DNA from: an uncultured Pseudomonadota bacterium
GTDB lineage: Bacteria > Pseudomonadota > Gammaproteobacteria > Steroidobacterales > Steroidobacteraceae
Direction of reading: 5' to 3'
NCBI GenBank assembly: GCA_903884235.1
Contig: CAISEB010000020.1
Location: 1-64,000 of the forward strand
Length of the DNA: 64,000 nt
Shown here piece after piece: positions 3,837 to 52,893 of this stretch. The position numbers and the translations under genes were made by a program. Position 1 is the stretch's first letter, and each line of letters opens with the position of its first letter. Below the pieces are notes generated by a model. It was not told where the DNA came from. It did no database searches and saw nothing but the letters and a program-made list of their open reading frames with translations.

Positions 3837-6800
3837 TTACATGCTGCGGCGATATTCGCCGCCAACGTCGTAGAGCCCGTGGCTCAACTGCCCGAGCGAG
3901 TAGAACTTCACCGCTTCCAGCAGGCTCTCGAACACGTTGCGCCTCGCCCTTGCGGTCGCCTGCAGCGTGGCGAGTGCGTCCGCGGCGCGGCCGTTGCGTG
4001 CGACCTGGAACGACTGCACGTTGCGGATCTGCTGCTGCTTCTCGTCTTCCGTGGAACGGATCAGCTCGATGGTCGTCGTGATCTCGCCGGCGTGGTCCTT
4101 GGGAAGGAACGTGTTCACGCCGATCAGCGGCAGTGATCCGTCGAACTTCTTGTGCTCGTAGTACAGGCTCTCGTCCTGGATCTTGCCACGCTGGTACATC
4201 GTGTCCATCGCGCCGAGCACGCCACCGCGCTCGGAGATTGCCTCGAACTCCTTGTACACGGCCTCCTCGACGAGGTCGGTCAGCTGGTCGACGATGAAGC
4301 TGCCCTGCCAGGCGTTCTCGCAGAAGTTCAGGCCGAACTCCCGGTTGATGATCAGCTGGATGGCCACAGCACGGCGCACCGACTCCTCGGTCGGGGTCGT
4401 GATCGCCTCGTCGTACGCGTTCGTGTGCAGCGAATTGCAGTTGTCGAGCAGCGCATAGAGCGCCTGCAGCGTCGTGCGGATGTCGTTGAACTGGATCTCC
4501 TGGGCGTGCAGCGATCGGCCGGACGTCTGGATGTGGTACTTCATCATCTGGCTGCGCGCACTCGCACCGTAGCGCTCCTTCATCGCCCGCGCCCAGATCC
4601 GCCGCGCCACGCGGCCGATGACGGTGTACTCCGGGTCCATCCCGTTCGAGAAGAAGAACGACAGGTTCGGCGCGAAGTCATCGATCTTCATGCCGCGCGC
4701 GAGGTAGTACTCGACGATCGTGAAGCCGTTCGAGAGGGTGAATGCGAGCTGCGAGATCGGGTTCGCACCGGCCTCCGCGATGTGGTATCCGCTGATCGAA
4801 ACCGAGTAGAAGTTCCGGACCTTGCGATCCACGAAAGACTGCTGCACGTCGCCCATCATCCTGAGCGCGAACTCGGTCGAGAAGATGCAGGTATTCTGCG
4901 CCTGGTCCTCCTTGAAGATGTCCGCCTGCACGGTGCCGCGCACGACGGACATCGTTTCGCACTTGATCCTGGCGTACGTCTCGGCGTCGACGACGTCGTC
5001 GCCGGAGACCCCGAGCAGTCCGAGTCCGAGGCCATCGTGGCCGTCGGGAAGGGCGCCGTGGTAGCGGGGCCGCTCGCGACCGGCGTACATCGCCCCGATC
5101 ACCTTCTCCGCCGCCGCCCAGCGCGCCGCGTCCGCACGCAGGTGCCTCTCGACCTGCTGGTCGATCGCCGTGTTCATGAACATCGCGAGGATCATCGGCG
5201 CGGGACCGTTGATCGTCATCGAGACGGACGTCGTCGGGGAACACAGGTCGAAGCCGGAATACAGCTTCTTCATGTCATCCAGCGTCGCGATGCTGACGCC
5301 GGAGTTGCCGACCTTGCCGTAGATGTCGGGGCGGACTGCCGGATCCTCGCCGTACAGCGTCACCGAGTCGAAGGCCGTCGACAGGCGCGTCGCCCGCTGG
5401 CCATGGCTCAGGTAGTGGAAGCGCCGGTTGGTGCGCTCAGGCGTCCCCTCGCCCGCGAACATGCGGATCGGATCCTCGCCGGCACGGCGGTACGGGTAGA
5501 TGCCGGCCGTGTACGGATACGAGCCCGGGAGGTTCTCCTTGAGCAGGAACCTCAGCAGCTCGCCCCAGCTCTGGTAGTGCGGCGCGGCGACCTTCGGCAC
5601 CTTCTGGTGCGACAGCGTCTCGATGTAGTTCTCGCCGGTGACGGCCTTGCCGCGCACGTCGTAGCTGTAGGTCGCGTCGGTCACGGACTTCAGTCGCTCG
5701 GGCCAGCCGCGCAACAGCTCCAGGGACTCCGAGGGCAAGCTCGCGAGCGCGTCGTTGTACCGCTGGCGCAGCGTCAGCGTCGTGCGATCGCCATCCGAGG
5801 TCAGTGCCTCGCTCGGGTACGGGTCGAGCGCCTTCGGCAGGCGCGGGTCCCCGACCTCGCGCAGGGCCTCCCAGACGGACTGCGCACGGTTCGCCTGCTC
5901 GTCCTGTCGCTCGACGTCCGCGGCAACCTGGCGTGCGGATTCGGCGATCTCGGCGAGGTAGCGGACCCGGTTGCCCGGGATCAGCACGGTCTCGCGCGGC
6001 TCGCGGATCGTCGTGTCGACGTCCGGCGTCCAGCGCTCGGCGTTCAGGTTCAACTTCTTGCGCAGCAGGCGGCAGAGGTTCGCGAACATCCAGGTCACGC
6101 CCGGATCATTGAACTGGCTTGCGATCGTCGGGTAGACCGGAACGTCGTCGTCCTTGAGGTCGAACTTCGTGTGATTCCGGCGCCACTGCTTGCGCACGTC
6201 GCGCAGCGCGTCCTGCGCGCCGCGGCGATCGTACTTGTTGAGCACGACGAGGTCCGCGAAGTCGATCATGTCGATCTTCTCGAGCTGGCTCGCAGCGCCG
6301 TAGTCCGAGGTCATCACGTAGATCGGGAAATCCACGAGGTCGACGATCTCGGAATCCGACTGGCCGATGCCGGCGGTCTCGACGATGACGAGATCGTAGC
6401 CCTGCCCCTTCAGGCAGAGGATGCAGTCCTTCAGCACGGCGTTGGTCGCTGCGTGCTGGCGGCGCGTCGCGAGCGAGCGCATGAACATCCGCGGCGAGCG
6501 CAGCGAGTTCATCCGGATCCGGTCACCAAGCAGGGCGCCGCCGCTGCGGCGACGGGTCGGATCGACGGCCAGCACGGCGATGCGTATCGCGGGGAAGGCG
6601 CCGAGGAATCGCAGCACGAGCTCGTCGACAACCGACGACTTGCCGGCACCACCCGTGCCGGTGAGCCCGATCACCGGCGTCTGCTTGCCGGCGAGCTCCC
6701 AGCGCTTGCGCAACGTCGCGAGCTCGGCCTCCGGGATCGCCCCCTCCTCGACGGCCGACAGCAGCCGACCGATCGACAGCTCGTCATCGAGCTGCACCTG

Positions 6801-7292
6801 CGTCGGCACGACGGTCGGTGTGCGCCGGTCGACCGCGCGCTTCATCAGGTCCTCGATCATCCCGACGAGCCCGAGGTGCGCACCGTCGTTGGGGTGGTAG
6901 ATCCGCTCGACGCCATAGGCCTGCAGCTCGGCGATCTCCTCGGGGGTGATCGTGCCGCCGCCGCCGCCGAATACCGCGACGTGGCCGGCGCCGCGCTCGC
7001 GCAGCATGTCCACCATGTAGCGGAAGAACTCGAGGTGGCCGCCCTGGTACGAGGACAGCGCGATCGCATCCGCATCTTCCTGCAGTGCCGCCCGGACGAT
7101 GTCCTCGACCGAGCGGTTGTGGCCGAGGTGGATGACTTCGCCACCTTGCGCCTGGATCAGCCGGCGCATCACGTTGATGGCGGCGTCATGGCCGTCGAAC
7201 AGCGACGCGGCCGACACGAAGCGGAGCGGCGTGCCGTCCGGCCGGGCCCCGGCATCGAGGTGGGACTGTCTTCCGTGCGCAGGGGTGGCCAT
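3837..7292 (-). CDS. icmF: Fused isobutyryl-CoA mutase IcmF with G-protein chaperone
   Basis: Adenosylcobalamin enzyme interconverting butyryl- and isobutyryl-CoA; family members also isomerise isovaleryl- and pivalyl-CoA. Domain order is the IcmF hallmark: B12-binding domain (about 25-155, DGHDAAI at 33-39 with the cobalt-ligating His35), MeaI-type GTPase (about 205-420, P-loop GTGGAGKS 212-219, NKYD 352-355), linker, and mutase TIM barrel (about 570-1120). Phe612 in RMFAGEG and Gln799 in DQAQNT are the isobutyryl-type pair where methylmalonyl-CoA mutase has Tyr and Arg. The frame is open to 7868, but the ATG at 7292 has a CAGGAG site six bases upstream and gives 1151 residues, the normal size. 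First gene of the operon, divergent from an AraC-type regulator. Confidence 0.95.
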   Translation of the reverse strand: MATPAHGRQSHLDAGARPDGTPLRFVSAASLFDGHDAAINVMRRLIQAQGGEVIHLGHNRSVEDIVRAALQEDADAIALSSYQGGHLEFFRYMVDMLRERGAGHVAVFGGGGGTITPEEIAELQAYGVERIYHPNDGAHLGLVGMIEDLMKRAVDRRTPTVVPTQVQLDDELSIGRLLSAVEEGAIPEAELATLRKRWELAGKQTPVIGLTGTGGAGKSSVVDELVLRFLGAFPAIRIAVLAVDPTRRRSGGALLGDRIRMNSLRSPRMFMRSLATRRQHAATNAVLKDCILCLKGQGYDLVIVETAGIGQSDSEIVDLVDFPIYVMTSDYGAASQLEKIDMIDFADLVVLNKYDRRGAQDALRDVRKQWRRNHTKFDLKDDDVPVYPTIASQFNDPGVTWMFANLCRLLRKKLNLNAERWTPDVDTTIREPRETVLIPGNRVRYLAEIAESARQVAADVERQDEQANRAQSVWEALREVGDPRLPKALDPYPSEALTSDGDRTTLTLRQRYNDALASLPSESLELLRGWPERLKSVTDATYSYDVRGKAVTGENYIETLSHQKVPKVAAPHYQSWGELLRFLLKENLPGSYPYTAGIYPYRRAGEDPIRMFAGEGTPERTNRRFHYLSHGQRATRLSTAFDSVTLYGEDPAVRPDIYGKVGNSGVSIATLDDMKKLYSGFDLCSPTTSVSMTINGPAPMILAMFMNTAIDQQVERHLRADAARWAAAEKVIGAMYAGRERPRYHGALPDGHDGLGLGLLGVSGDDVVDAETYARIKCETMSVVRGTVQADIFKEDQAQNTCIFSTEFALRMMGDVQQSFVDRKVRNFYSVSISGYHIAEAGANPISQLAFTLSNGFTIVEYYLARGMKIDDFAPNLSFFFSNGMDPEYTVIGRVARRIWARAMKERYGASARSQMMKYHIQTSGRSLHAQEIQFNDIRTTLQALYALLDNCNSLHTNAYDEAITTPTEESVRRAVAIQLIINREFGLNFCENAWQGSFIVDQLTDLVEEAVYKEFEAISERGGVLGAMDTMYQRGKIQDESLYYEHKKFDGSLPLIGVNTFLPKDHAGEITTTIELIRSTEDEKQQQIRNVQSFQVARNGRAADALATLQATARARRNVFESLLEAVKFYSLGQLSHGLYDVGGEYRRSM

Positions 7293-7415
7293 CGATGACT
7301 CCTGGGGCGAACGTGATCCGGCTCGCACCTGACCCGGATGGCGCCTTGGGCGGCCGGGGTCGGCTCCGAAACCGGAGTAAGATCCGTAATATAGACAAGG
7401 AGCGCCGGGTTTCCG

Positions 7416-8537
7416 GTGTCCTTTCCGCTCAGTATGCGTGATCCGAAAAGCCATGCCTCGGCGGCCACGCCGCCTGCCTCCCGCAGCCGATACCGGCCGA
7501 GCGCCGAAAAGGGCACGATCTCGATCCAGTTCGTCCGCGCGGTCGTCGAGGCCGTGAAGACCCGGGGGCTCGAGGCGGACTCTCTCCTGCGCGCAGCGGG
7601 CATCTCCCCGGAACTCCTCGATGTGCCGCGGGCCCGGGTTTCGCCCGCCCATTACTCGGCGCTCTGGCGCCTCGTGATCGAGCGGCTGGATGACGAGTTC
7701 TTCGGCCAGGACTCCCGGCGGATGAAGGCCGGGAGCTTTGCGCTGATGGTGCGCTCGGTGGTGCACTGCACCACGCTGCGCGCGGCACTCGACCGCGCGA
7801 GCCGATTCATGTCCGTGTTCCTCGACGACCTGTCGGTGGCCGTCGACGAGCGCGACGGCGAGGCGCACCTGGTCCTGCGGTCAAGACCCGGATCGGGTCC
7901 GACCAGGGTATTCGCGCACGAGACGCTGCTCGTCATGACCTATGGGCTCGCCTGCTGGCTCGTCGGCCGGCGGATCAACGTGATCGCGGCGAGCTTCGCC
8001 TATCCAGCGCCCACACACGCCGGCGAATATCCGGCTCTGTTCAGTGCGACGCTGCGCTTCGGCGAACCGACAACCTGCCTCATCATGGACGCGGCCGTGC
8101 TCGACCTCCCTGTCGTGCAGAGCGAACGCAGTGCGAAGGACTTCCTGCGCATTGCGCCGGAGAACATCCTGCTCCGCTACAAGAACACGCAGAGCCTGTC
8201 TGCACGGATCCGCCGACGGCTGCGACAGGCCTTGCCGAACGACCTTCCGGAACTCGAGACCATGGCTCGGGAGATCGGCACGGCCCCGGCCACGCTGCGT
8301 CGCCGGCTGAAGGCCGAAGGCGAGTCGTACCAGGCGATCAAGGACGAAGTGCGTCGCGACCTCGCGATCACGTATCTCAGCACCACGGACAAGAGCATCC
8401 GGGACATCGCGCTGGAGCTCGGGTTCCTGGAGCCGAGTGCGTTCCACCGTGCATTCCGGAAGTGGGCCCACACCTCGCCTGGCGCCTACCGGCGCGCCGA
8501 CAGTACCCAGCCAGGCGCAGGACGCCGACGGACCTGA
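7416..8537 (+). CDS. AraC-family transcriptional regulator with arabinose_bd-like N-domain
   Basis: Predicted activator of the OruR/ArgR-type AraC subgroup. Residues about 35-220 form the long N-terminal ligand domain of this group; the C-terminal 100 residues hold two helix-turn-helix motifs (METARE-type first HTH around 278-300, SIRDIALELGFLEPSAFHRAF second HTH around 330-350). The GTG at 7416 has AAGGAG 13 bases upstream, a little far; an ATG at 7434 is the alternative start. The gene is transcribed away from icmF across a 123-base gap, so control of the icmF operon by an acyl-CoA or organic-acid ligand is the natural inference. Its stop codon directly abuts that of the convergent HMG-CoA lyase gene. 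Confidence 0.88.
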   Translation: MSFPLSMRDPKSHASAATPPASRSRYRPSAEKGTISIQFVRAVVEAVKTRGLEADSLLRAAGISPELLDVPRARVSPAHYSALWRLVIERLDDEFFGQDSRRMKAGSFALMVRSVVHCTTLRAALDRASRFMSVFLDDLSVAVDERDGEAHLVLRSRPGSGPTRVFAHETLLVMTYGLACWLVGRRINVIAASFAYPAPTHAGEYPALFSATLRFGEPTTCLIMDAAVLDLPVVQSERSAKDFLRIAPENILLRYKNTQSLSARIRRRLRQALPNDLPELETMAREIGTAPATLRRRLKAEGESYQAIKDEVRRDLAITYLSTTDKSIRDIALELGFLEPSAFHRAFRKWAHTSPGAYRRADSTQPGAGRRRT

Positions 8538-41663: not shown

Positions 41664-42176
41664 CTAGCGGTCCCGGGCTGGCGCCCGCAGCCTCCCGAAG
41701 GCCGCCTCGAAATCGACCGCGAAGCTCGCCCGGACCCAGATCGCGTAGCCGCTGCTGACCCGGGCCAGCACGCACGGGCAGTCGAACAGCACCACCGATG
41801 CGCACTCGCGGCCGTCCAGGACGGATTCGCTGTCGATGCTCAGGCCTAGCGCCCGGCCGGCATCCGGGCCGGACAGGTGGAATTCGCACCACTTGCCGGT
41901 CGCGTCGATCGACATGCCCGCCGACGCGGCCACCGCGGCGTCGACGAGCGCGGTGATCTCATCGCAGGGTGCCGGCACGAGCCAGCGCGCCGGCGCGACG
42001 TGAAGCAGCACGGGGCGCCCCTCCGCGTCGTTGCGGACCTCGCCCGGTGCCGATGGCCAGCCGACGACGAACGCGCCTCCCGCCGGATACAGGAACGCGA
42101 CGAACTCGAGCACGCGGCCGGGCGAGTGCGCGACCAGCTCGATGCGCAGGCTCTTCAGTGCAGTCTGGGTGGTCAT
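41664..42176 (-). CDS. soxG: Sarcosine oxidase gamma subunit
   Basis: The smallest-conserved subunit of heterotetrameric sarcosine oxidase, 170 residues. It has the GcvT-like gamma fold with ARWLVPAP, SIDATGKWCEFHLSGPDAGRAL and a C-terminal RASFAVDFEAAFGRL. Alone it would be hard to recognise, but its ATG overlaps the soxA stop by four bases (ATGA), which fixes its identity in the BDAG order. It probably stabilises the complex rather than carrying a cofactor. Confidence 0.9.
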   Translation of the reverse strand: MTTQTALKSLRIELVAHSPGRVLEFVAFLYPAGGAFVVGWPSAPGEVRNDAEGRPVLLHVAPARWLVPAPCDEITALVDAAVAASAGMSIDATGKWCEFHLSGPDAGRALGLSIDSESVLDGRECASVVLFDCPCVLARVSSGYAIWVRASFAVDFEAAFGRLRAPARDR

Positions 42177-45109
42177 GACTTCATCCGCCCGCCACTGGCA
42201 TCGTAGTGGACGATCGAGGTCAGGCGGACGGCGCAGTCACCGATGCGCAGCGGGTCGCGCGCCGTCAGTACGGCTCCTTCTGCGTGGAGGCGGCTGACGA
42301 GCGCCAGGCCCACCCACTCACCGAGTGCAGGGCTATAGACGCTCGAAGTCACGTAGCCGCAGGGCCGGTTCGGTGCATCCGCCGCGGTCAGCTGCGCGCC
42401 GCCGTAGAAGCGCCCGCGACCGTCCACTGCGCGCACGCCGATCAGGCGCGGGCGCGTCGCCTCGCGGAAGGCCGGTCGATCGAGCAGGTCCCGGCCGATG
42501 CAGGGATTGCCGAGCTTGATCATCACGTCCATGCCGAGGTCCGCTGGCGTCGTCTGCCCGTTCAGCTCGGAGCTCACGAGATAGCCCTTCTCGACGCGCA
42601 GGATGTCGAGCGCCTCGAGGCCGTAGGGCTGCAAGCCGGCGGCGACCAGCGACTCCCAGAGGCCGACCGCGATGGCGGGGCGGCAGTGAAGCTCGAAGGC
42701 AAGTTCGCCGGAGAAGCTCGCGCGCAGCACGGCGAGGTCCTGGCCGCCATGCAGGCCGCGCGCGAACGCCATGTGCGTCAGCGCGTCGATCGATTCGGCC
42801 CACGACGCGCCGAGCACGGCGTTCAGTGCGGTGCGGCTGGTGGGGCCGGCGACGACGATCACCGCCCAGGCCTCGGTGACGTCCGTCACCGTGACCCCGC
42901 GACCACTCCACTCGGTGTCGCGGTAGTGCTCGAAGTGCGACAGCATGTGCGCGCCGTGACCGGAGCTCGTCGTCGCGAGGAAGCGGTCCTCGGCAAGCCG
43001 CAGCACGATGCCATCGTCGAGGACCATGCCGTCCTCGCGCAGGTTCACCATGTACTTGGACCGGCCGACCTTGATCGTGCTGGCCTTCGTCAGGTAGAGC
43101 GTGTCGAGGAAGGCAGCGGCGTCGGGCCCGGCCACCTCGATCTTGCCCAGCGTCGAACCGTCGACGATGCCACCGACCTCGCGCACTCGGCGCGCCTCGA
43201 CGATGCCCGCTTCGTACGCCGCGGGACCGTTCTGGGTGTAGTACCGGGGCCGCATCCACAGGTCCATCGGCTCCAGCACGCCGCCATGGGCGAGGTGCCA
43301 GTCGTACAGCGGCGTGCGCCGCGTGATGCGCAGGTTCTCATCGACCCGCAGCCCCGCGATCGATCGCATCGCCACCGAGTGGTAGGGCGGGCGCAGCCGG
43401 CTCGTGCCGACCTCGGCGAGCGGCTCGCCACGCAGCTCCGCGAGGATCGCCGCGCCGAGCAGGCCACCGATGCGCCCCTGGTCGGTGCCGAAGCCGAGCG
43501 CGGTGTATCGCTTGACGTGCTCGACGTCGATGAAGCCTTCCTCCAGCGTCGCGCGCAGGTCGGCCACGGTCGTGTCGTTCTGGTAGTCGATGAACTGCCG
43601 CTTCTCGCCAGCGCGATCGGCGGGCGAGCGCCAGAACGGCACCAGCCGCGGGGCGGGATCGCCCGCGCCCGTCGGCGCGGCGCTCGCATCGCTGCCGCGT
43701 CCGGCGACGCGCGCTGCATTTCGACCGGCCGCCGTGCCATCCGCGAGCACGGCGCCAAGCTCGAGGATGCCGTTGGCGCCACCGGCATTCGCACGCCCGG
43801 CAGGCTGTTCGGTCGCGACGAACGCGCCGAGTGACGCGTCGTAGCGCTTGGTGCCGCCCTCCTGGGTGCCGGCGTGGACCGATGGGCCCCATCCGCCACT
43901 CACGAGCAGCGCATCGCAGCCGAAATTGCGCGTCGCGCTGGGCGTCGCCAGTGGGGCAATCGTCGCCCCGCGCACCTCGCGACCGCCGCGTGCGGCGAGC
44001 ACGGCGTGCTCCGCGAGGCATTCCGTTCCGCCGGCCACGAGCGCCGCGCGCCGTGACGCCGCCGCGGCGCCGACGGCGTCGGCCGGGCGCGTGTCTACTA
44101 CGGCCCTGACGCGCATCCCGGCCGCGACGAGGCGCGTCGCCGCGGCGTAGGCGCGGTCGTGGTTCGCGAACAGGACCAGGGTCTTGCCGATCCGCACGCC
44201 GTAGCGCGCGAGGAACCGCTCCGCGGCACCGATCAGCATCACGCCCGGCAGGTCATTGTTGACGAACGCGATCGGTCGCTCGACCGCGCCGAGCGCGAGC
44301 ACGATCTGCTTCGGCCGGATCTTGTACATCGTGCTGCAGCCTGGCAGTCCGCCCGGCTCGAAGTGCGCGACATACTCGCCACCGTTGCCGGCAACGAGCG
44401 TGGTGGCCGTCAGGATTCGGGCACCGAGGCGATCGAGCTCGGCCAGCGTCGCGCGCACCCATTCGAGCGGCGCCTGACCGTCGATGGCTCCGCTCTCGAA
44501 TTCGAGCTCACCGCCGCAGACCGGCTCGCGCTCGACCAGGACGACGCGCGCTCCACCCCGCGCCGCTGCCAGGGCAGCGGCAAGCCCCGCGGCTCCGCCG
44601 CCGGCGACGAGCACGTCGCAGCTCGAGTGCTCGTGCGGGACTGGCGCGAGGTTCGCGTCGCGCGGCGCCGTCCCGAGGCCCGCAAGCGCGCGGATCGGCG
44701 CTTCCCAGGCATGCCACGACGGCCAGATGAAGGTCTTGTAGTAGAAGCCGGCGCCGAAGAATCCGCCCCCTGCCTGCAGCAGGGACGCCACGTCGTAGCG
44801 CAGCGACGGCCAGCGATTCTGGCTCCTCGCGACGAGCCCGTCGGTGAGCTCGAGCTGCGGCGCGTAGACGTTCGGGATGACGCAGGGATCGGTGCCGACC
44901 GTGAACAGTGCGTTCGGCTCCTCGGGACCGGCTGCGAGCACGCCACGCAGGCGGCGGTACTTCACGCTGCGTCCCATCGCCCGCACGCCATTGGCAAGCA
45001 GCGCCGAGGCGGCGGTGTCGCCGACCTGCCCCGTGTAGTCGCGTCCATCGAACCGGAAGCGGAGCGTCTCGCCGCGAAGGCGGGTGCCGCGACGCAGGTT
45101 GCCGCTCAT
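42173..45109 (-). CDS. soxA: Sarcosine oxidase alpha subunit
   Basis: The 978-residue alpha subunit holds NAD and the tetrahydrofolate-using domain. In order: N-terminal Fer2-like domain (about 1-100, GRSVKYRRLRGVLAAGPEEPNAL), NAD/FAD Rossmann domain (VLVAGGGAAGLAAALAAARGG near 168), a central domain, and the C-terminal GcvT/aminomethyltransferase domain (about 600-970) where the imine carbon is transferred to THF to give 5,10-methylene-THF. ATG 45109 overlaps the soxD stop by four bases and has GGAGGT six bases upstream. Together with SoxB it converts sarcosine to glycine. Confidence 0.95.
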   Translation of the reverse strand: MSGNLRRGTRLRGETLRFRFDGRDYTGQVGDTAASALLANGVRAMGRSVKYRRLRGVLAAGPEEPNALFTVGTDPCVIPNVYAPQLELTDGLVARSQNRWPSLRYDVASLLQAGGGFFGAGFYYKTFIWPSWHAWEAPIRALAGLGTAPRDANLAPVPHEHSSCDVLVAGGGAAGLAAALAAARGGARVVLVEREPVCGGELEFESGAIDGQAPLEWVRATLAELDRLGARILTATTLVAGNGGEYVAHFEPGGLPGCSTMYKIRPKQIVLALGAVERPIAFVNNDLPGVMLIGAAERFLARYGVRIGKTLVLFANHDRAYAAATRLVAAGMRVRAVVDTRPADAVGAAAASRRAALVAGGTECLAEHAVLAARGGREVRGATIAPLATPSATRNFGCDALLVSGGWGPSVHAGTQEGGTKRYDASLGAFVATEQPAGRANAGGANGILELGAVLADGTAAGRNAARVAGRGSDASAAPTGAGDPAPRLVPFWRSPADRAGEKRQFIDYQNDTTVADLRATLEEGFIDVEHVKRYTALGFGTDQGRIGGLLGAAILAELRGEPLAEVGTSRLRPPYHSVAMRSIAGLRVDENLRITRRTPLYDWHLAHGGVLEPMDLWMRPRYYTQNGPAAYEAGIVEARRVREVGGIVDGSTLGKIEVAGPDAAAFLDTLYLTKASTIKVGRSKYMVNLREDGMVLDDGIVLRLAEDRFLATTSSGHGAHMLSHFEHYRDTEWSGRGVTVTDVTEAWAVIVVAGPTSRTALNAVLGASWAESIDALTHMAFARGLHGGQDLAVLRASFSGELAFELHCRPAIAVGLWESLVAAGLQPYGLEALDILRVEKGYLVSSELNGQTTPADLGMDVMIKLGNPCIGRDLLDRPAFREATRPRLIGVRAVDGRGRFYGGAQLTAADAPNRPCGYVTSSVYSPALGEWVGLALVSRLHAEGAVLTARDPLRIGDCAVRLTSIVHYDASGGRMKS

Positions 45110-45348
45110 GTCGCACCTCCACCGAGGAGCGTCGTCTCGAGCACGGCGTCGGTCGACGGGTTGCGTCGCACGCGCAGCCACGCACGGCAGCCCAGCACGT
45201 GCTGCCAGTGCTCCGTGCTCTCGTCGAGGCGGGCGACGCGCTCGTAGACGCGGGCGTACGGACTGCTGCCCGGCTCCGGCAGTGTCTTGTGGAATTCGAA
45301 CTCCCGCAGCTCACGGGGCCCGCAGAACGGACAGGTCAGGCGGTTCAT
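45106..45348 (-). CDS. soxD: Sarcosine oxidase delta subunit
   Basis: An 80-residue zinc subunit. Cys6 and Cys9 (CPFCG) with His50 and Cys54 (HVLGC) match the Cys-Cys-His-Cys zinc site of known SoxD. The HW-x-H-x-x-GC-x-x-W block and the ending with RRNPST are family features. Its ATG overlaps the soxB stop and its stop overlaps the soxA start, each by four bases. The upstream open frame to 45510 is a shadow of soxB. Confidence 0.93.
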   Translation of the reverse strand: MNRLTCPFCGPRELREFEFHKTLPEPGSSPYARVYERVARLDESTEHWQHVLGCRAWLRVRRNPSTDAVLETTLLGGGAT

Positions 45349-46619
45349 AGGCGCACCGGGAACGGACCGCCGCCGCGTTCGTCGAGCAGGTGCCCGGTCT
45401 GGAATCGCGACAGCTTGAACGGCTTGATGAGATCGGGAGCGGTGCCGGTCGCGACGAGGGTCGCGCAGGCCGCGCCGGATGCAGGAATCGTCTTGAATCC
45501 GCCGTAGCACCAGCCCGCGTTCAGGAACACGTTGTCATGGCGCAGGCGGTCGATGATCGGGCTGCCGTCCATCGTCATGTCGTTGGTGCCGGCCCACTGG
45601 CGGACGATCTTGACGCCCGCCGCGCGCGGCAGCACAGCGACGGTTCCCTCGACGACGTTCTCGAGTCGCGACCACTGGCCTTCGCGCGTGTACGACGGGA
45701 AGCCGTCAAGGAACCCGCCCATGACGAGGCCGCCCTTGTCGGACTGCAGCACGTAGACCTCACCGTGGCCGGGATACACATAGATGATCACCGTGTTGAC
45801 CATCGGCTTGATCGGCTCGGTCACCATCGCCTGGAGCAGGTGCGTCTCGATCGGCAGCGGCATGCCGAGCATCGTGCCGATCATGCCGGTATGCCCGGCT
45901 GTCGCGAACAGGACCCGGTCGGCCTTCACGTAGCCACGCGAGGTCTCGACGCCCGTCGCGACACCCGCCGCCGTGCGCAGTCCCTGCACGTCGCAGTCCT
46001 CGATGATGTCGACGCCGTGGGCCGTCGCTGCGCGCGCATAGCCCCAGGCGACCGCATCGTGGCGCACCGTGCCGCCGCGGCGCTGCACCATGCCGCCGAA
46101 GATCGGGAACCGTCGCTGGCGCCTGGGCTCGAGCTCGGGACAGAAGCGCTCTAGCGCGGGCAGGTCGAGGAGTTCCGCGTCGATGCCGGCGAGGCGCATC
46201 GCATTGCCGCGGCGGGCCATGTCCTGCATGTCGCCATCCGACAGCGCGAGGTCGAGCACGCCACGCGGGCTGTACATCACGTTGTAGTTGAGGTCCTTCG
46301 ACAGCGTCTCCCAGCGGCGCAGCGAATCCTCGTAGAAGTAGTGGTTCTCCGGCAGCAGGTAGTTCGAGCGAACGATCGTCGTGTTGCGACCGACGTTCCC
46401 GTAGCCGACCAGCCGGCGTTCGAGCACCGCGACCTTCAAGCCATGGTCCCGGGCCAGGTGGTAGGCCGTCGCGAGCCCGTGGCCACCGGCACCGACGACG
46501 ACGACGTCATAGGCGTCCTTGAGCTTGCGGCCGGTCCACAACGGACTCCAGAAGCCGCCGCCGGAGAGGCGCGCGCGCAGCAGCGCGAGGGCGGAATAAC
46601 GCGGGATGGCGCCGGTCAT
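45345..46619 (-). CDS. soxB: Sarcosine oxidase beta subunit
   Basis: Catalytic flavoprotein of 424 residues that binds FAD noncovalently and FMN covalently. DVVVVGAGGHGLATAYHL (38-55) is the FAD site; GYGNVGRNTTIVRSNY is the family block around 72-87, and His187 in VRHDAVAWGYARAA is the predicted 8-alpha-histidyl-FMN residue. Sarcosine is oxidised here and the imine passes through a channel to SoxA. First gene of the four-gene soxBDAG set, 154 bases downstream of the BetI-like repressor gene on the same strand, with a hairpin between. Confidence 0.95.
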   Translation of the reverse strand: MTGAIPRYSALALLRARLSGGGFWSPLWTGRKLKDAYDVVVVGAGGHGLATAYHLARDHGLKVAVLERRLVGYGNVGRNTTIVRSNYLLPENHYFYEDSLRRWETLSKDLNYNVMYSPRGVLDLALSDGDMQDMARRGNAMRLAGIDAELLDLPALERFCPELEPRRQRRFPIFGGMVQRRGGTVRHDAVAWGYARAATAHGVDIIEDCDVQGLRTAAGVATGVETSRGYVKADRVLFATAGHTGMIGTMLGMPLPIETHLLQAMVTEPIKPMVNTVIIYVYPGHGEVYVLQSDKGGLVMGGFLDGFPSYTREGQWSRLENVVEGTVAVLPRAAGVKIVRQWAGTNDMTMDGSPIIDRLRHDNVFLNAGWCYGGFKTIPASGAACATLVATGTAPDLIKPFKLSRFQTGHLLDERGGGPFPVRL

Positions 46620-46722
46620 GGCGGGGACGTCCCGGGCCGGCGCCCGTTACAGTTCGTGTAGGTCACAGGTTCACTCGTCAGACACGCGGCCGCGGTGGTT
46701 CGAGAAGGCCGGGGAGCATACA

Positions 46723-46741
46723 CCGCGGTCACCGACCGCGG
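46723..46741 (-). terminator. Hairpin between the TetR gene and soxB
   Basis: CCGCGGTC-ACC-GACCGCGG is a perfect 8-bp stem with a 3-base loop, 33 bases past the TetR gene stop on the same strand. Without a T-run it may only attenuate. It implies soxBDAG could have its own promoter in the remaining 100 bases, but I see no convincing -35/-10 pair there. Confidence 0.4.
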
Positions 46742-46773
46742 AATCGCGGCAATTCGCACCGCCGGCACGCCAT

Positions 46774-47370
46774 TCACCTCACGCCGGCGACGGCCGCCAG
46801 CATCTGCGCGACGAGCGCGCGACGCCGTCGCGGTGGCAGCCGGGTGGGTTCGAAGGTCGATGCAATCCAGATGCCGTCGATGCCGGCGCTCAGCAGTTCC
46901 ACCGTGTCGCCGAGCGCCCGCGGCCTCGGCACCTCGCCGCGCCGGACGGCCTCCGACAGGTGGCGACGCAGGTGGCGGCGCCAGCGCGCGTAGTAGTCGC
47001 CATGCACCTTCGCGAGCGCCGGATTCTTGAGTGCACCATCCCAGAGGCTCACCCACACGCCCATGAACGTGGGCGCCCGCGGCGCCGGCACCATGAATTC
47101 GAGCGCAGCGCGCAGCCGGCCGAGACCGGGTTCGGCATGGGCGACCGCGGCATCCAGTTCCTTGAACGTCTGGTCCGCCATCCAGCGGAACGCGAATGCG
47201 ACCAGGTCGTCCTTGTCCCTGAAGTAGTGCCCGAGCACGCCGATGCTGAAGCCGCCTTCCGTTGCGATGCGGCGCACGGTCGCACCGCCGGAACCCTCCT
47301 TGCGGATCACCCGCACGGTGAGCGCAGCGATCTCCTCTCGGCGACGGGCGTGGTCGACGATCTTCGGCAT
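46774..47370 (-). CDS. TetR-family repressor, BetI-like
   Basis: A 198-residue regulator. The N-terminal HTH (about 10-60: TVRVIRKEGSGGATVRRIATEGGFSIGVLGHYFRDKDDLVAFAF) matches BetI, the choline/betaine-responsive repressor, including the H-Y-F at the end of the recognition helix; the C-terminal ligand domain follows (TFMGVWVSLWDGALKNPAL). It lies between soxBDAG (same strand) and the divergent MttB-DMGDH operon. A palindrome overlaps the opposing promoter, so it very probably represses that operon, and possibly its own, until a quaternary amine or derivative binds. Confidence 0.88.
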   Translation of the reverse strand: MPKIVDHARRREEIAALTVRVIRKEGSGGATVRRIATEGGFSIGVLGHYFRDKDDLVAFAFRWMADQTFKELDAAVAHAEPGLGRLRAALEFMVPAPRAPTFMGVWVSLWDGALKNPALAKVHGDYYARWRRHLRRHLSEAVRRGEVPRPRALGDTVELLSAGIDGIWIASTFEPTRLPPRRRRALVAQMLAAVAGVR

Positions 47371-47413
47371 CGAGCTCCCCGTTGCAGGCGCCGGCGGGCG
47401 GGCGATAGCCGCA

Positions 47414-47442
47414 ATTATAGCGGCGGACCGCGCGCCTGAACA
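47414..47442 (-). promoter_or_regulatory. Candidate promoter for the BetI-like gene
   Basis: On the minus strand a perfect TATAAT (47419 to 47414) is preceded at 17 bases by TGTTCA (47442 to 47437), a weak -35. Transcription would begin about 40 bases before the TetR-gene ATG at 47370. It lies a few bases from the operator-like palindrome at 47447-47460. Confidence 0.55.
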
Positions 47443-47446
47443 TTAA

Positions 47447-47460
47447 ATGACGATTGTCAT
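47447..47460. promoter_or_regulatory. Operator-like palindrome ATGAC-N4-GTCAT
   Basis: A perfect inverted repeat (ATGAC GATT GTCAT) whose right arm overlaps the -35 box of the rightward promoter. It lies just upstream of the leftward -35 in an AT-rich stretch of an otherwise GC-rich region. Position and size suit a TetR/BetI dimer that blocks both promoters. Confidence 0.6.
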
Positions 47461-47483
47461 AAATAAAAGCCGCGTGCTATAAA
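47454..47483 (+). promoter_or_regulatory. Sigma70-type promoter of the MttB-DMGDH operon
   Basis: TTGTCA at 47454-47459 and TATAAA at 47478-47483 are separated by 18 bases; both differ from consensus by one base. The predicted start site is about 65 bases before the TTG start of the MttB-like gene. The -35 lies inside the palindrome, consistent with repression by the neighbouring BetI-like protein. Confidence 0.65.
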
Positions 47484-47555
47484 AAGACGACGCCGAGCCG
47501 ACCAGCCGGGGGCGCGCACCCGCGCGTCGACTCGTGAACGGGCGGGAGAACAGCC

Positions 47556-49109
47556 TTGAGCGACCAGTCCACGTCCGGGCGCGCCACGCGCGCGACCTCG
47601 CGCGAGTCGAGGCGTGCCGCACGCGCGCAGCGCTCGGCGGTCAAGCTGCCGTACATCCGCCGCAAGCTGCCGACCGTGGAGCTGCTCAGTTCCGAGGCGG
47701 TCGAGGTCATCGAGGCGAACGCGGAGACCATCCTCGAGGAAGTCGGCATCGAATTCCGGCGCGATCCGGAGTCGCTGCGCCTCTGGCGCGAGTCCGGCGC
47801 CGACGTCAAGGGCGAACGCGTGCGCATCCCGCGCGGGCTCGCCCGGTCGCTGCTTAGCACCGCGCCGCGCGAATTCATGCTGCACGCCCGCAATCCGGAG
47901 CGGTCCGTCCGCTTCGGCGGCGATGCGACGGTGTTCTCGCCGGTGGGAGGTCCACCGTTCGTGACCGACCTCGACCGCGGACGGCGCTACGGCACGCTCG
48001 AGGACCTGCACAACTTCATCAAGCTCGCTCACACGGCGCCGGCGATCCACTTCTCCGGGGGCACGGCCGTCGAGCCCATGGACATCCCGGCCGGCAAGCG
48101 GCACCTCGATACGCAGTACGCGTACTTCCGCTACAGCGACCAGGGCTGCGAGGCGACGCCCGAGACGCCCGGGCACGCGGCGGACGCGGTCGACATGGCG
48201 CGCCTTCTCTTCGATGCGTCGTTCGTCGAGCGCAACGCGGTCGTGCTCGGCAACATCAATTCCAACTCGCCGCTCACCTTCGACGGCCGCATGCTCGGTG
48301 CCCTGCGCGTGTTCGCCGGCGCGAACCAGGGCACGATCATCGTGCCGGCGGTACTCGCCGGCGCCATGGGCCCGGTGACGACCGCCGGCTGCATGTCCGA
48401 GATCCTCGCCGAGACGCTCGCCGGCATGGCGCTGACCCAGCTCGTGCGGCCGGGGGCGCCGGTGATCATGGGGTCCTTCGTGGGGGCCATCTCGATGCGC
48501 TCCGGCGCGCCGACGTTCGGCACGCCCGAGGCCACGCAGATGATCTTTGCCACGGCGCAGCTGGCGCGCCGCCTCGGCGTGCCCTGCCGCAGCGGCGGCT
48601 CACTGTGCTCCTCGAAGGTGTCGGATGCGCAGGCTGCCTACGAGAGCGCGCACACGCTATTGCCGACGCTGCTCGCCGGGGTCAACCTCGTGACCCATGC
48701 CGCCGGCTGGCTCGAGGGCGGCCTCGTGTCCGGATACGAGAAGTTCGTGATGGACGTCGACCAGCTGGCGATGATGCAGGCGCTCGCGTCCGGCATGGAC
48801 ATCAGCGAGCGCGGCCAGGCGCTCGACGCGATCCGCGAGGTCGGGCCCGGCGGCCATTTCCTCGGCTGCGCCCACACCCAGGCGAACTTCGAGACGGCGT
48901 TCTACCAGTCCACGATCGCGGACTACTCGTCCTACGAGCAGTGGTCGATGGAAGGATCGCTGACCGCGGAGCAGCGCGCGAACGCGGTCTGGAAGAAGAT
49001 GCTCGCCGAGTACGAGGATCCGGGCCTGGATCCCGCCCGCGACGAGGCGTTGCTGGAGTACATGGCGAAGCGCCGCGCGGTACTGACCGACGCGATCGAG
49101 GAGGAGTAG
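47556..49109 (+). CDS. Trimethylamine methyltransferase (MttB) superfamily protein, non-pyrrolysine
   Basis: A 517-residue TIM-barrel methyltransferase. Family blocks are HFSGGTAVEPMDIP, NINSNSPLTFDGRMLGALRVFA, TTAGCMSEILAETLAG, CRSGGSLCSSKVSDAQAAYES and MDVDQLAMMQ. There is no in-frame amber codon, so it belongs to the large non-Pyl group whose characterised members demethylate quaternary amines (glycine betaine, proline betaine, carnitine) onto a corrinoid protein. Start is TTG 47556 with GGGAGAA seven bases upstream; the first 30 residues are Arg/Ser/Thr-rich. It opens the operon and is four bases from the DMGDH-like gene. No corrinoid partner or RamA-like activase is in the window. Confidence 0.9.
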   Translation: MSDQSTSGRATRATSRESRRAARAQRSAVKLPYIRRKLPTVELLSSEAVEVIEANAETILEEVGIEFRRDPESLRLWRESGADVKGERVRIPRGLARSLLSTAPREFMLHARNPERSVRFGGDATVFSPVGGPPFVTDLDRGRRYGTLEDLHNFIKLAHTAPAIHFSGGTAVEPMDIPAGKRHLDTQYAYFRYSDQGCEATPETPGHAADAVDMARLLFDASFVERNAVVLGNINSNSPLTFDGRMLGALRVFAGANQGTIIVPAVLAGAMGPVTTAGCMSEILAETLAGMALTQLVRPGAPVIMGSFVGAISMRSGAPTFGTPEATQMIFATAQLARRLGVPCRSGGSLCSSKVSDAQAAYESAHTLLPTLLAGVNLVTHAAGWLEGGLVSGYEKFVMDVDQLAMMQALASGMDISERGQALDAIREVGPGGHFLGCAHTQANFETAFYQSTIADYSSYEQWSMEGSLTAEQRANAVWKKMLAEYEDPGLDPARDEALLEYMAKRRAVLTDAIEEE

Positions 49110-49113
49110 GACC

Positions 49114-51531
49114 ATGAAGAGCCACTACAGGGCCGTCGTCATCGGCGGCGGGATCGTCGGCGCCAGCGTGCTCTACCACCTCACGAAGAAGGGCTGGACC
49201 GACATCGCGCTCATCGAGCGGGCGGAGCTGACGGCGGGTTCGACCTGGCATGCCGCAGCGGGCTTCCACTCGATCAACGACGACCCGAACATCGCCGCGC
49301 TTCAGGCCTACACGATCAAGCTCTACAAGGAGATCGAGGCCGAGAGCGGCCAGAGCGTCGGCATGCACATGCCTGGCGGCTACATGATCGCGACGACGCC
49401 GGCGCGCTGGGAGTGGCTGCGCGCGGAGTGCTCCGTCTACCAGACGCTGGGCATCGACGCGCGCGTCGTCACGCCCGAGGAGATCGTCGCGGACTGCCCG
49501 ATCGTCGACCCGACGGGCCTGCTCGGCGGGCTGTTCGATCCGCACGAAGGCGCCGTCGATCCGCACGGCACCACGCACGCGTTCGCGATCGCCGCCCGCA
49601 AGCGCGGCGCCGACGTCATCCTGCGCAACCGCGTCGTGTCGATGGCGCAGCTCCCGAACGGCCACTGGCAGCTCGAGACCGAGCATGGCCCCGTCGTCGC
49701 CGAGCATGTCGTCAACGCCGGCGGCCTGTGGGCCCGCAAGGTCGGCCGCATGGCAGGCCTCGACCTGCCGCTCACGCCGATGCAGCACCACTACCTGATC
49801 ACGGAAGACCTCCCGGAGCTCCTCGCGCGCCCCGACGAGATGCCGTGCGTGACCGACCTCGAGGGCTTCACGTACCTGCAGCAGGAGCGCAAGGGCGTGC
49901 TGCTCGGCGTCTACGAGCGTGATCCGCGCCACTGGAAGACCGAAGGTGCGGACTGGGACTACGGCATGGACCTCATTCCGGAGGAGATCGACCGCATCAG
50001 CCCGGAGCTCAGCATCGGCTTCAGGCGCTTCCCGACGCTGGAGCGCGCCGGCATCCGCCGCTGGGTCAACGGCGCCTTCACCTTCACGCCCGACGGCAAC
50101 CCGCTCGTCGGACCGGTTCCGGGACTGTCGAACTACTGGGTCGCGTGCGGCTGCATGTCGGGCTTCTCGCAGGGCGGCGCGATCGGCCTCGTGCTCTCCA
50201 ACTGGATGGCGGACAACGATCCGGGTTCCGACATCTTCGGCATGGACGTCGCTCGCTACGGTGCATTCGCCTCCAACGACCGCTACCTGCGTGACACGAC
50301 CGCGCAGTTCTACGCGCGGCGCTTCATCATCTCCTATCCGAACGAGGAGCTGCCCGCCGGGCGCCCGCTCAAGACCACGCCGAGCTATGACGCCCAGCGC
50401 GCGCTCGGTGCGCGCTTCGGCGTCGTCTGGGGCATGGAGAGCCCGCAGTACTATGCGGTTGGCGAACCGGAGTTCGTCGAGGAGCCGACGCTGCGGCGCA
50501 CGAATGCGGATCGCTTCGTCGCCGCCGAGGTGGCCGTGACGCGCGCTGCCGCCGGACTCGTCGACACGGGCGTCTATGCGCGCTACGAGGTGACCGGTCC
50601 CGGCGCCGAGGCCTGGCTCGACCAGCTGCTCGCCAACACGCTGCCGCCGGTCGGTCGGCTGCGCCTCGCCCCGATGCTGAGCCCGCGCGGCAAGCTGATG
50701 GGCGACCTGACGGTCACCCGCCTCGACCAGGACCGCTTCTGGCTGGTCGGCTCGTACTACCTGCAGGAATGGCACCTGCGCTGGTTCCGGGACCACCTGC
50801 CCCCATCTGGTGTATCGATCGAGAACCTGTCCGAGAGCTGGCTCGGCTTCTCGTTGTCCGGCCCGCGCTCGCGCGACATCCTCGCCCGCCTCACGCGCGA
50901 GGACGTCTCGGACGCGTCGCTGCCCTTCCTCGGATGCCGGTCGATCGACATCGGGCTCACGACCGCCGTGGTCGCGCGGCTGTCGCTCACGGGCGAGCTC
51001 GGCTACGAGATCAACGTCCCGGCGCTGCAGCAGCGCGCGCTGTGGACGGCGCTGCTGGAGGCCGGAGCCGACTTCGGCATGCGGCCGATCGGCATGCGCG
51101 CGCAGGACAGCCTGCGGCTCGAGAAGGGCTATGGCATCTGGTCGTTCGAATTCAGCGCCTCGAACACGCCCGCCCAGGCTGGACTGGACCGCTTCGTCGC
51201 CTGCGACAAGGGCGACTTCGTCGGCCGCGAGGCCGTCCTCGCCGAGCGCGAGACGGGGCCGGCAGAGCGGCTGGTGCTCCTCGAGGTGGACTCCCCGACC
51301 GCGGACTGCACGGGCTACGAGCCGGTCCACTGCGACGGCGAGCGCATCGGCTACGTGACGTCAGGCGCCTACGGCCACCACGTCAAGGCAAGCCTCGCGC
51401 TCGCCTACGTGCGCCGGGACATCGCGGACCGCCCGCGACCCCTGTCGGTCGACGTCATCGGCGATGCACGGCCGGCGCGAATCCTTGCCGAACCCCCCTA
51501 CGACCCGTTAGGGCGAAAGCTGCGTGGCTGA
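49114..51531 (+). CDS. Dimethylglycine/sarcosine dehydrogenase-like flavoprotein with GcvT domain
   Basis: An 805-residue protein with an N-terminal DAO domain (about 6-370: AVVIGGGIVGASVLYHLTKKG) and C-terminal GcvT/aminomethyltransferase domains (about 430-795: PRGKLMGDLTVTRL, GELGYEINVPA, SLRLEKGYGIWSFEFS). His46 in AGSTWHAAAGFHS corresponds to the histidine that binds FAD covalently in DMGDH/SarDH. Such enzymes oxidise an N-methyl group and pass the carbon to THF. ATG 49114 has GAGGAG upstream and lies four bases after the MttB-like stop. Substrate (dimethylglycine, another tertiary amine or sarcosine) is inferred from context. Confidence 0.9.
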   Translation: MKSHYRAVVIGGGIVGASVLYHLTKKGWTDIALIERAELTAGSTWHAAAGFHSINDDPNIAALQAYTIKLYKEIEAESGQSVGMHMPGGYMIATTPARWEWLRAECSVYQTLGIDARVVTPEEIVADCPIVDPTGLLGGLFDPHEGAVDPHGTTHAFAIAARKRGADVILRNRVVSMAQLPNGHWQLETEHGPVVAEHVVNAGGLWARKVGRMAGLDLPLTPMQHHYLITEDLPELLARPDEMPCVTDLEGFTYLQQERKGVLLGVYERDPRHWKTEGADWDYGMDLIPEEIDRISPELSIGFRRFPTLERAGIRRWVNGAFTFTPDGNPLVGPVPGLSNYWVACGCMSGFSQGGAIGLVLSNWMADNDPGSDIFGMDVARYGAFASNDRYLRDTTAQFYARRFIISYPNEELPAGRPLKTTPSYDAQRALGARFGVVWGMESPQYYAVGEPEFVEEPTLRRTNADRFVAAEVAVTRAAAGLVDTGVYARYEVTGPGAEAWLDQLLANTLPPVGRLRLAPMLSPRGKLMGDLTVTRLDQDRFWLVGSYYLQEWHLRWFRDHLPPSGVSIENLSESWLGFSLSGPRSRDILARLTREDVSDASLPFLGCRSIDIGLTTAVVARLSLTGELGYEINVPALQQRALWTALLEAGADFGMRPIGMRAQDSLRLEKGYGIWSFEFSASNTPAQAGLDRFVACDKGDFVGREAVLAERETGPAERLVLLEVDSPTADCTGYEPVHCDGERIGYVTSGAYGHHVKASLALAYVRRDIADRPRPLSVDVIGDARPARILAEPPYDPLGRKLRG

Positions 51532-51606
51532 AGCGCCCGATACAGAGGCGCGCGGAATGCCATAATCGACGGGCGCGGCGACTGGTCGCGATTGCAGGGG
51601 GTAGGG

Positions 51607-52893
51607 ATGCCGTTGCTGCGCCAGCCGGTGCGGATCCGGTGGTGGATCTTCTCGTTTCTGTTTGGGTTTGCGACGCTCGCCTACCTGCAGCGCACGAGCT
51701 TCACCGTCATCGCCCCCCAGATGATGCCGGACCTCGGCCTCAGCCATCAGCAGTTCGGCTGGCTGAAGACCATGTTCGCGACTGCCTACGCGCTGTCGCA
51801 GATCCCGTCCGCGGCCCTCGGCCAGTGGTTCGGCGCCCGCAAGACCTACGTGATCGTCGGCATCCTCGGCATTGCCGCGATGCTGATCTCGTCCGCCGCT
51901 CCGTTGATCGCCGGCGGACTCGCGCTCTACTGCCTGCTGCTGCTGTCGCAGATGCTGCTCGGTGCCTCCCAGGGCCCGGTGTTCCCGATGTTCGCCGGGG
52001 TCGTCCAGCAGTGGTTCCCGGAGAAGCGCTGGGCGCTGGCCAACGGCATGCAGTCCGCGGGCATGGACCTCGGCGGACTGATCGCGGCGCCGCTGCTCGT
52101 GTTCCTGATGCAGTCCTCGGGCTGGAAGGGCGCGCTGCTCTGGCTCGCGGTGCCCGCGATCGTGTTGACCGCTTGGTGGGGCTGGTACGGCCGGAACACG
52201 CCGGAGGAACACCCGTCGGTGCGGCCGGAGGAAATCGCCGAACTCGAGGGGACGGACCGGACGCCGGCACCACCGCTGACGGCATCCCGACTGTTCGCGA
52301 TCGCGACGAATCGCGACGTGCTGGTGCTCGCGCTGTCGTACCTGAGCATGAACTTCGCGTTCTACATCCTCAGCGACTGGTCGTTCATCTACCTCGTGGA
52401 AGTGCGCCACCTGCAGGGCGTCGAGAGCGGGCTCGCCGGCGCGACCCCCTGGCTCGGCGCAGCGCTCGGTGCCGCCGCCGGTGGCGCCGTCTCCGATCGC
52501 CTGGCGACGCGCATCGGGCCTCGCTGGGGTGATCGCCTCGTGCCGATGGTGACTCTGCCGCTGGCGGGCATCGTGCTGCTGACGACCACGCACTTCTCGA
52601 CGCCGTACGCCGCCGTCGCGGGCCTCACGATCGCGTTCGCGCTCGTGGAGTTCAATGAAGGCGCCTACTGGGCGGCGACGATGCGCGTCGCGCGCGCCGA
52701 TACAGGCGCCGCCACCGGCGTGCTCAACACCGGTGGCAACTTCGGCGGCATCCTGGTCGGGCCTGTGCTCGGCTACCTCTCGGGCATTGGTGCCTGGAAC
52801 GGCGCGTTCGCCCTTGGAACTTTCTTCTGCCTGGTCGCCGCGGCGCTCTGGCTGCTGGTCGACACCGATCGGCGGGTCATCGCCCGCTTCTGA
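51607..52893 (+). CDS. MFS transporter, ACS-type
   Basis: Twelve-helix inner-membrane carrier of 428 residues. YLQRTSFTVIAPQMMPDLGL after the first helix and LLGASQGPVFPMFAGVVQQWFPEKRWALANG in the fourth/fifth helix region mark the anion:cation symporter family. ATG 51607 has AGGGGG upstream. It is the third gene rightward in the methylated-amine operon, 75 bases after the DMGDH-like gene; a CATAAT-like sequence in that gap could give it a secondary promoter. It may import the amine substrate or a related carboxylate. Confidence 0.87.
   Translation: MPLLRQPVRIRWWIFSFLFGFATLAYLQRTSFTVIAPQMMPDLGLSHQQFGWLKTMFATAYALSQIPSAALGQWFGARKTYVIVGILGIAAMLISSAAPLIAGGLALYCLLLLSQMLLGASQGPVFPMFAGVVQQWFPEKRWALANGMQSAGMDLGGLIAAPLLVFLMQSSGWKGALLWLAVPAIVLTAWWGWYGRNTPEEHPSVRPEEIAELEGTDRTPAPPLTASRLFAIATNRDVLVLALSYLSMNFAFYILSDWSFIYLVEVRHLQGVESGLAGATPWLGAALGAAAGGAVSDRLATRIGPRWGDRLVPMVTLPLAGIVLLTTTHFSTPYAAVAGLTIAFALVEFNEGAYWAATMRVARADTGAATGVLNTGGNFGGILVGPVLGYLSGIGAWNGAFALGTFFCLVAAALWLLVDTDRRVIARF

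Follow-up and report, generated by a model that had tools for sequence, protein, structure and literature searches.

Divergent control of genes for methylated amines by a TetR-family protein has a demonstrated example: BetI2-betTA of Ruegeria pomeroyi DSS-3 is a divergon of the plan proposed for the locus described here (PMC12442346). The BetI1 box of R. pomeroyi is ATTGACG*CGTCAAT (PMC12442346). Demethylation of glycine betaine by MtgB, MtgC and MtgD is described for R. pomeroyi and Desulfitobacterium (PMC12478193).

The locus studied here lies in a 64-kb stretch of DNA from an uncultured Steroidobacteraceae bacterium; by "the window" we mean this whole stretch. A TetR gene (tetR) and a gene for an MTTB-family methyltransferase (mttB) point away from each other across a short gap. 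With good confidence, we read this gap as the control region of an autoregulated TetR divergon, which would respond to a ligand from the betaine pathway rather than to choline.

The shared gap and its conservation

The gap between tetR (46774-47370, minus strand) and mttB (47556-49109, plus strand) covers 47371-47555, that is 185 bases, and contains the following elements:

47414-47419, minus strand: leftward -10, TATAAT, for tetR, read from the sequence
47447-47460, no strand: palindromic operator ATGACGATTGTCAT, the predicted TetR site, from the sequence and the orthologous gaps
47454-47459, plus strand: rightward -35, TTGTCA, read from the sequence; it overlaps the right half of the operator
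47475-47483, plus strand: rightward extended -10, TGC-TATAAA, present as TGCTATAA in L001-L003, L009 and L010 (L numbers are loci; L001 is the window)

Every element listed in an earlier, sequence-only reading of this DNA, from the length of the gap to both promoters and the palindrome over the rightward -35, is found in the window to the base. TATAAA itself occupies 47478-47483 (plus strand), with an 18-base spacer from TTGTCA. The half-sites of the operator, ATGAC and GTCAT, are perfect, and 6 of the 7 pairs of the 14-mer match. No -35 can be recognised for the leftward TATAAT: with a spacing of 17 bases, TGTTCA agrees at 3 of 6 positions.

These elements are not there by chance. When both strands of the 64 kb are searched with spacers of 15-19 bases, TTGTCA-N18-TATAAA is the sole sigma-70-like promoter pair that matches at 10 of 12 positions, and the leftward TATAAT is the single TATAAT on either strand. 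The patch at 47440-47484 (45 bases) has 31% GC, against 70% for the window. A promoter scan demanding T at position 6 of the -10 reported nothing in the window; it missed the rightward pair because of this requirement. The proposed genome search for further copies of ATGAC-N4-GTCAT gave four exact matches in 4.12 Mb, one of them in the window; the other three have CNNG centres and lie inside long overlapping reading frames or in GC-rich coding-like DNA.

When the family was searched exhaustively (217 genomes), 17 genomes were found to have this TetR, those of the window and 16 relatives; class-wide sampling added no further orthologue at E<=1e-25. The pattern NTNAC(A/G)NNTGTNAT is present in all 14 mttB-tetR gaps, window included, at 56-119 bases from the start of tetR. 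It appears in 0-0.15% of the shuffles of each gap, a figure that measures rarity and is not an independent test, as the pattern was derived from the same 14 gaps; the argument is therefore the position of the site and its persistence. Two of the 14 loci, L005 and L008, are short contigs where only the N-terminus of the mttB product is visible. The operator takes these forms:

ATGACGATTGTCAT: the window (L001)
ATGACACTTGTTAT: L002
ATGACAATTGTCAT: L003
CTTACATGTGTTAT: L004-L008
ATTAC(G/A)NNTGTTAT: L009 and L010
ATAACANNTGTTAT: L011 and L013-L015

In L012, whose locus ends at a contig edge, no site was seen. L016 and L017 are orthologues with another neighbour, not mttB, opposite; they have AGAAC(A/G)NNTGTTCC upstream, which is a related but different site. 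In ten relatives TNACRNNTGTYATA is rare, with 1-5 matches genome-wide, and one of these is always in the tetR-mttB gap. The palindrome is imperfect outside its core in several clades, with CTTAC...GTTAT in L004-L008, and two-fold symmetry is not strictly kept. The ATGAC half-site given by the sequence-only reading is present in the window, but it is a local variant: most orthologues have ATAAC or TTAC. Judged from the aligned forms, the general operator is nearer to ATAACA-NN-TGTTAT, and ATGAC/GTCAT is the version of the window's clade.

That reading had staked its shared operator on conservation in relatives with the same gene pair, and here it holds. The mark of an autoregulated TetR divergon is a conserved palindrome in the shared gap that overlaps promoter elements; the palindrome is found in 14 of 14 gaps, and in the window it overlaps the rightward -35. 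Because it is kept in every relative that has the gene pair and a readable gap, the palindrome is very probably the on/off switch for the betaine-type demethylation genes.

The promoters differ more between clades. The extended -10 is kept in L001-L003 and L009/L010, and its -35 counterpart in L002/L003 is TTGTTA/TTGTCA. In the other clades mttB mostly begins close behind the operator, and the sole -10-like sequence, TTATAAAT, overlaps the right half of the operator; in L011 this sequence is TTATATAT. In every clade, then, the rightward promoter lies under the operator, but the part covered is the -35 in one arrangement and the -10 in the other; the position of this promoter with respect to the operator has changed between clades. 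In the short-leader clades the right half, TGTTATAAAT, is at the same time the -10-like sequence, and its conservation may partly reflect promoter function. On the other side, the leftward -10 is TATAAT in L002/L003, as in the window, and TATGCT in L009/L010. Both clades keep it at a distance of exactly 27 bases from the operator, so that relative to the leftward promoter the operator spans about -40 to -53.

In the mechanism that we propose, a dimer of the TetR protein would bind the palindrome at 47447-47460 and cover the -35 of the rightward promoter, which would serve mttB, a dimethylglycine-dehydrogenase-like gene and a transporter gene. The bound dimer would also lie just upstream of, or over, the leftward -35 region and would probably damp the leftward promoter, which would serve tetR and, by read-through, the sarcosine oxidase (sox) genes. 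Both transcripts would be held down until a small ligand frees the repressor.

Control could also be one-way, with TetR repressing mttB alone and with tetR and sox driven by promoters of their own, independently of it. We think this unlikely, yet some observations fit it: there is overlap between the operator and the rightward promoter in all clades, whereas the leftward start is some 40-53 bases downstream of the operator, and in two clades a conserved GTGTAT(G/C)CT precedes soxB. The latter is found where the tetR-soxB gap is longer (46620-46773 in the window), as GGTGTATGCTCCCC (minus strand), conserved in L002/L003, in the window's clade and as GTGTATCCTC in L013-L015; it is possibly a separate sox promoter outside operator control. 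Against one-way control stands the tight packing of tetR and soxB in six orthologous loci, where about 20-41 bases at most separate the tetR match from the start of soxB, a spacing that fits a single leftward transcript of tetR and soxB. So does the fixed distance of 27 bases to the leftward -10 in two clades. Further, TetR proteins commonly autoregulate.

The flanking genes, the regulator and the ligand

The genes on the two sides of the gap are, from left to right:

41664-42176, minus strand: probable soxG (gamma subunit), from its position after soxA and its appearance
42173-45181, minus strand: soxA-type sarcosine oxidase alpha subunit (TIGR01372, 953.6 bits, below the strict cut-off of 1164; PF17806)
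45106-45348, minus strand: probable soxD (delta subunit), overlapping the end of soxB, from position and sequence appearance
45345-46619, minus strand: soxB-type sarcosine oxidase beta subunit (TIGR01373, 530 bits, above the cut-off)
46774-47370, minus strand: TetR-family repressor of 198 aa with a TetR_C_6 (BetI-type) C-terminal domain, from profile scores
47556-49109, plus strand: MTTB-family methyltransferase resembling MtgB, with a TTG start and GGGAGA upstream (PF06253, 715 bits)
49114-51531, plus strand: dimethylglycine-dehydrogenase-like FAD oxidoreductase with GCV_T domains (PF01266, PF16350, PF01571, PF08669)
51592-52893, plus strand: MFS transporter (PF07690)

The annotated start of soxA is probably too far upstream. 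MtgB is the glycine betaine:corrinoid methyltransferase. The nearest solved chains to the MTTB protein are 4yyc, 2qne and 9yce; 9yce is a glycine betaine methyltransferase (5.9e-121), but higher scores go to 2qne and 4yyc (putative), chains whose function is unproved. The 4.1-Mb genome has nine MTTB-family genes, one of them just past the window (C20:65826-67289). The window that holds mttB also has, at 3837-7868 (minus strand), a frame of 1343 aa that contains a B12-binding domain and is probably the methionine synthase MetH.

Taken by gene family, these proteins form an apparent route from glycine betaine, the presumed substrate of the MTTB protein, over dimethylglycine and sarcosine to glycine. 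Such a route would agree with the MtgB pathway that is described for marine bacteria (PMC12478193). As the proteins of this route lie on both sides of the gap, the ligand is expected to be one of its compounds, most likely glycine betaine or dimethylglycine, or else sarcosine. Choline, one of the ligands that the sequence-only reading put forward for a binding test, appears less likely as inducer, as the neighbouring genes resemble a set for demethylating betaine, dimethylglycine and sarcosine.

A true BetI, and with it a switch that answers to choline, is improbable. The regulator is a TetR protein by both of its domains, which are above their gathering scores (TetR_N, 29.2 against 24 bits; TetR_C_6, 79.3 against 27 bits). 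The BetI-type C-terminal domain bears out the description "BetI-like TetR" in part, and the best named model is indeed BetI. However, with the BetI equivalogs TIGR03384 / PRK00767 the scores are 85.6 bits against a cut-off of 201.3 and 70.1 bits against 118, both far below the curated cut-offs. A BetA above its cut-off is encoded in the genome, but on another contig (C16:184172). The neighbours of tetR are the MTTB, dimethylglycine-dehydrogenase-like and sox genes, instead of betA, betB or betT, and they act downstream of glycine betaine.

The operator also speaks against a true BetI. The site upstream is not of the ATTGA...TCAAT type and does not fit the box of R. pomeroyi (PMC12442346). ATTGA-N4-TCAAT has no exact match in the genome and four with one mismatch, all on other contigs, compared with two in a backwards control. 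This is a caution against naming every TetR_C_6 protein BetI.

The recognition helix and related sites

The predicted recognition helix of the TetR in the window is FSIGVLGHYF. Among the 17 aligned orthologues GVLGHYF is found only in L001-L003, the others having GVLTHYF, GVLSHYF or GVITHYF, and L001-L003 are also the sole loci with ATGAC. The difference is Gly47 against Thr or Ser elsewhere; in TetR-type proteins this residue would be expected to face the DNA. The three loci form one clade (94/97 support), so the coincidence is a single event and only suggestive.

We tentatively propose, as a possibility rather than an expectation, that in the window's clade the operator changed from ATAAC/TTAC to ATGAC together with the change from Thr/Ser to Gly47, a small natural case of co-evolution of repressor and operator. 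GTTAT has become GTCAT in two of the three members; in L002 one half has changed, and this locus may represent an intermediate. Before the shift, the -10 would have moved out of the operator and left the right half-site free to change. If true, the comparison of clades provides a simple case of a repressor and its operator changing together.

The same genome has a 35%-identical TetR paralogue (C41:91822; L112 5790-6485) with ATAACAAGTGTTAC upstream of its start; the single orthologue of this paralogue found in the family, in genome G050, has ATAACACCTGTTAC. The paralogue is followed by a gene resembling repeated 6-pyruvoyl-tetrahydropterin synthase. The idea that the operator shift avoids cross-talk with this paralogue is weakened, as the search of the family genomes found the C41 regulator only in G000 (the genome of the window) and G050; G105 and G114 have the shift but not the C41 regulator.

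A genome-wide regulon was rejected. ATNACA-NN-TGTNAT with at most one mismatch occurs at 6 places in 4.12 Mb (control 2), and only those in the window and at the C41 paralogue are just upstream of a TetR gene. Rejected as well was a site general to the wider TetR family: an ACA-NN-TGT palindrome is present in 3 of 65 upstream stretches of remote homologues, against 0.27 expected. In the alphaproteobacterial relatives from Neorhizobium (43%) and Ruegeria (31%) the TetR neighbours other genes, and the AC-N4-GT palindromes upstream are only suggestive. One relative, genome G057, has a second good site, CTAACAATTGTTAT, flanked by an aldehyde-dehydrogenase-like gene on one side and a 285-aa frame on the other (L134, G057:C11:105522); it is possibly a further target there.

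It is also improbable that the AT-rich patch is mainly promoter, with overlapping -10 and -35, and the palindrome incidental or bound by another factor. In favour of this are the conserved, -10-like sequence TTATAAAT inside the site and the rarity of AT-rich patches in the GC-rich window. Against it, no rightward -10 includes the left half (TNAC), which is nevertheless kept in 14 of 14 gaps; a site of the same class accompanies the paralogous regulator; and the half-site change coincides with that of the recognition helix.

Comparison with known systems

The type of switch is well known, and the novelty is modest: the site and the set of genes it joins were not found described in the literature searched, where we found no paper on a regulator for the pair of MTTB methyltransferase and sarcosine oxidase genes. 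What the comparison adds is a defined candidate operator for a group of TetR proteins beside a betaine-demethylation gene set with both of these enzymes.

BetI2-betTA shares with our locus a TetR-family regulator, divergent catabolic genes for a methylated amine, palindromes that overlap promoter -35 elements and boxes outside the classic betI consensus (PMC12442346). It differs in that its effector is choline and that two boxes overlap around AAACTTGAAC, whereas here there is one 14-bp site and the genes are those of betaine demethylation.

The sequence-only reading had held that the half-sites differ from the bet operator. This is right for their spacing, as the halves abut in the BetI1 box while here, in TGACG-AT-TGTCA, they are two bases further apart; the half-site TGAC(G) itself is common to both, as is a dyad covering the -35 (PMC12442346). 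The family consensus departs further, being closer to ATAACA-NN-TGTTAT.

As in the MtgB/MtgC/MtgD system (PMC12478193), an MTTB-family (PF06253) methyltransferase would carry out the first demethylation, and demethylation of dimethylglycine and sarcosine would follow. Unlike in that system, the putative MTTB methyltransferase gene here is divergent from a TetR gene that is itself followed by sarcosine oxidase.
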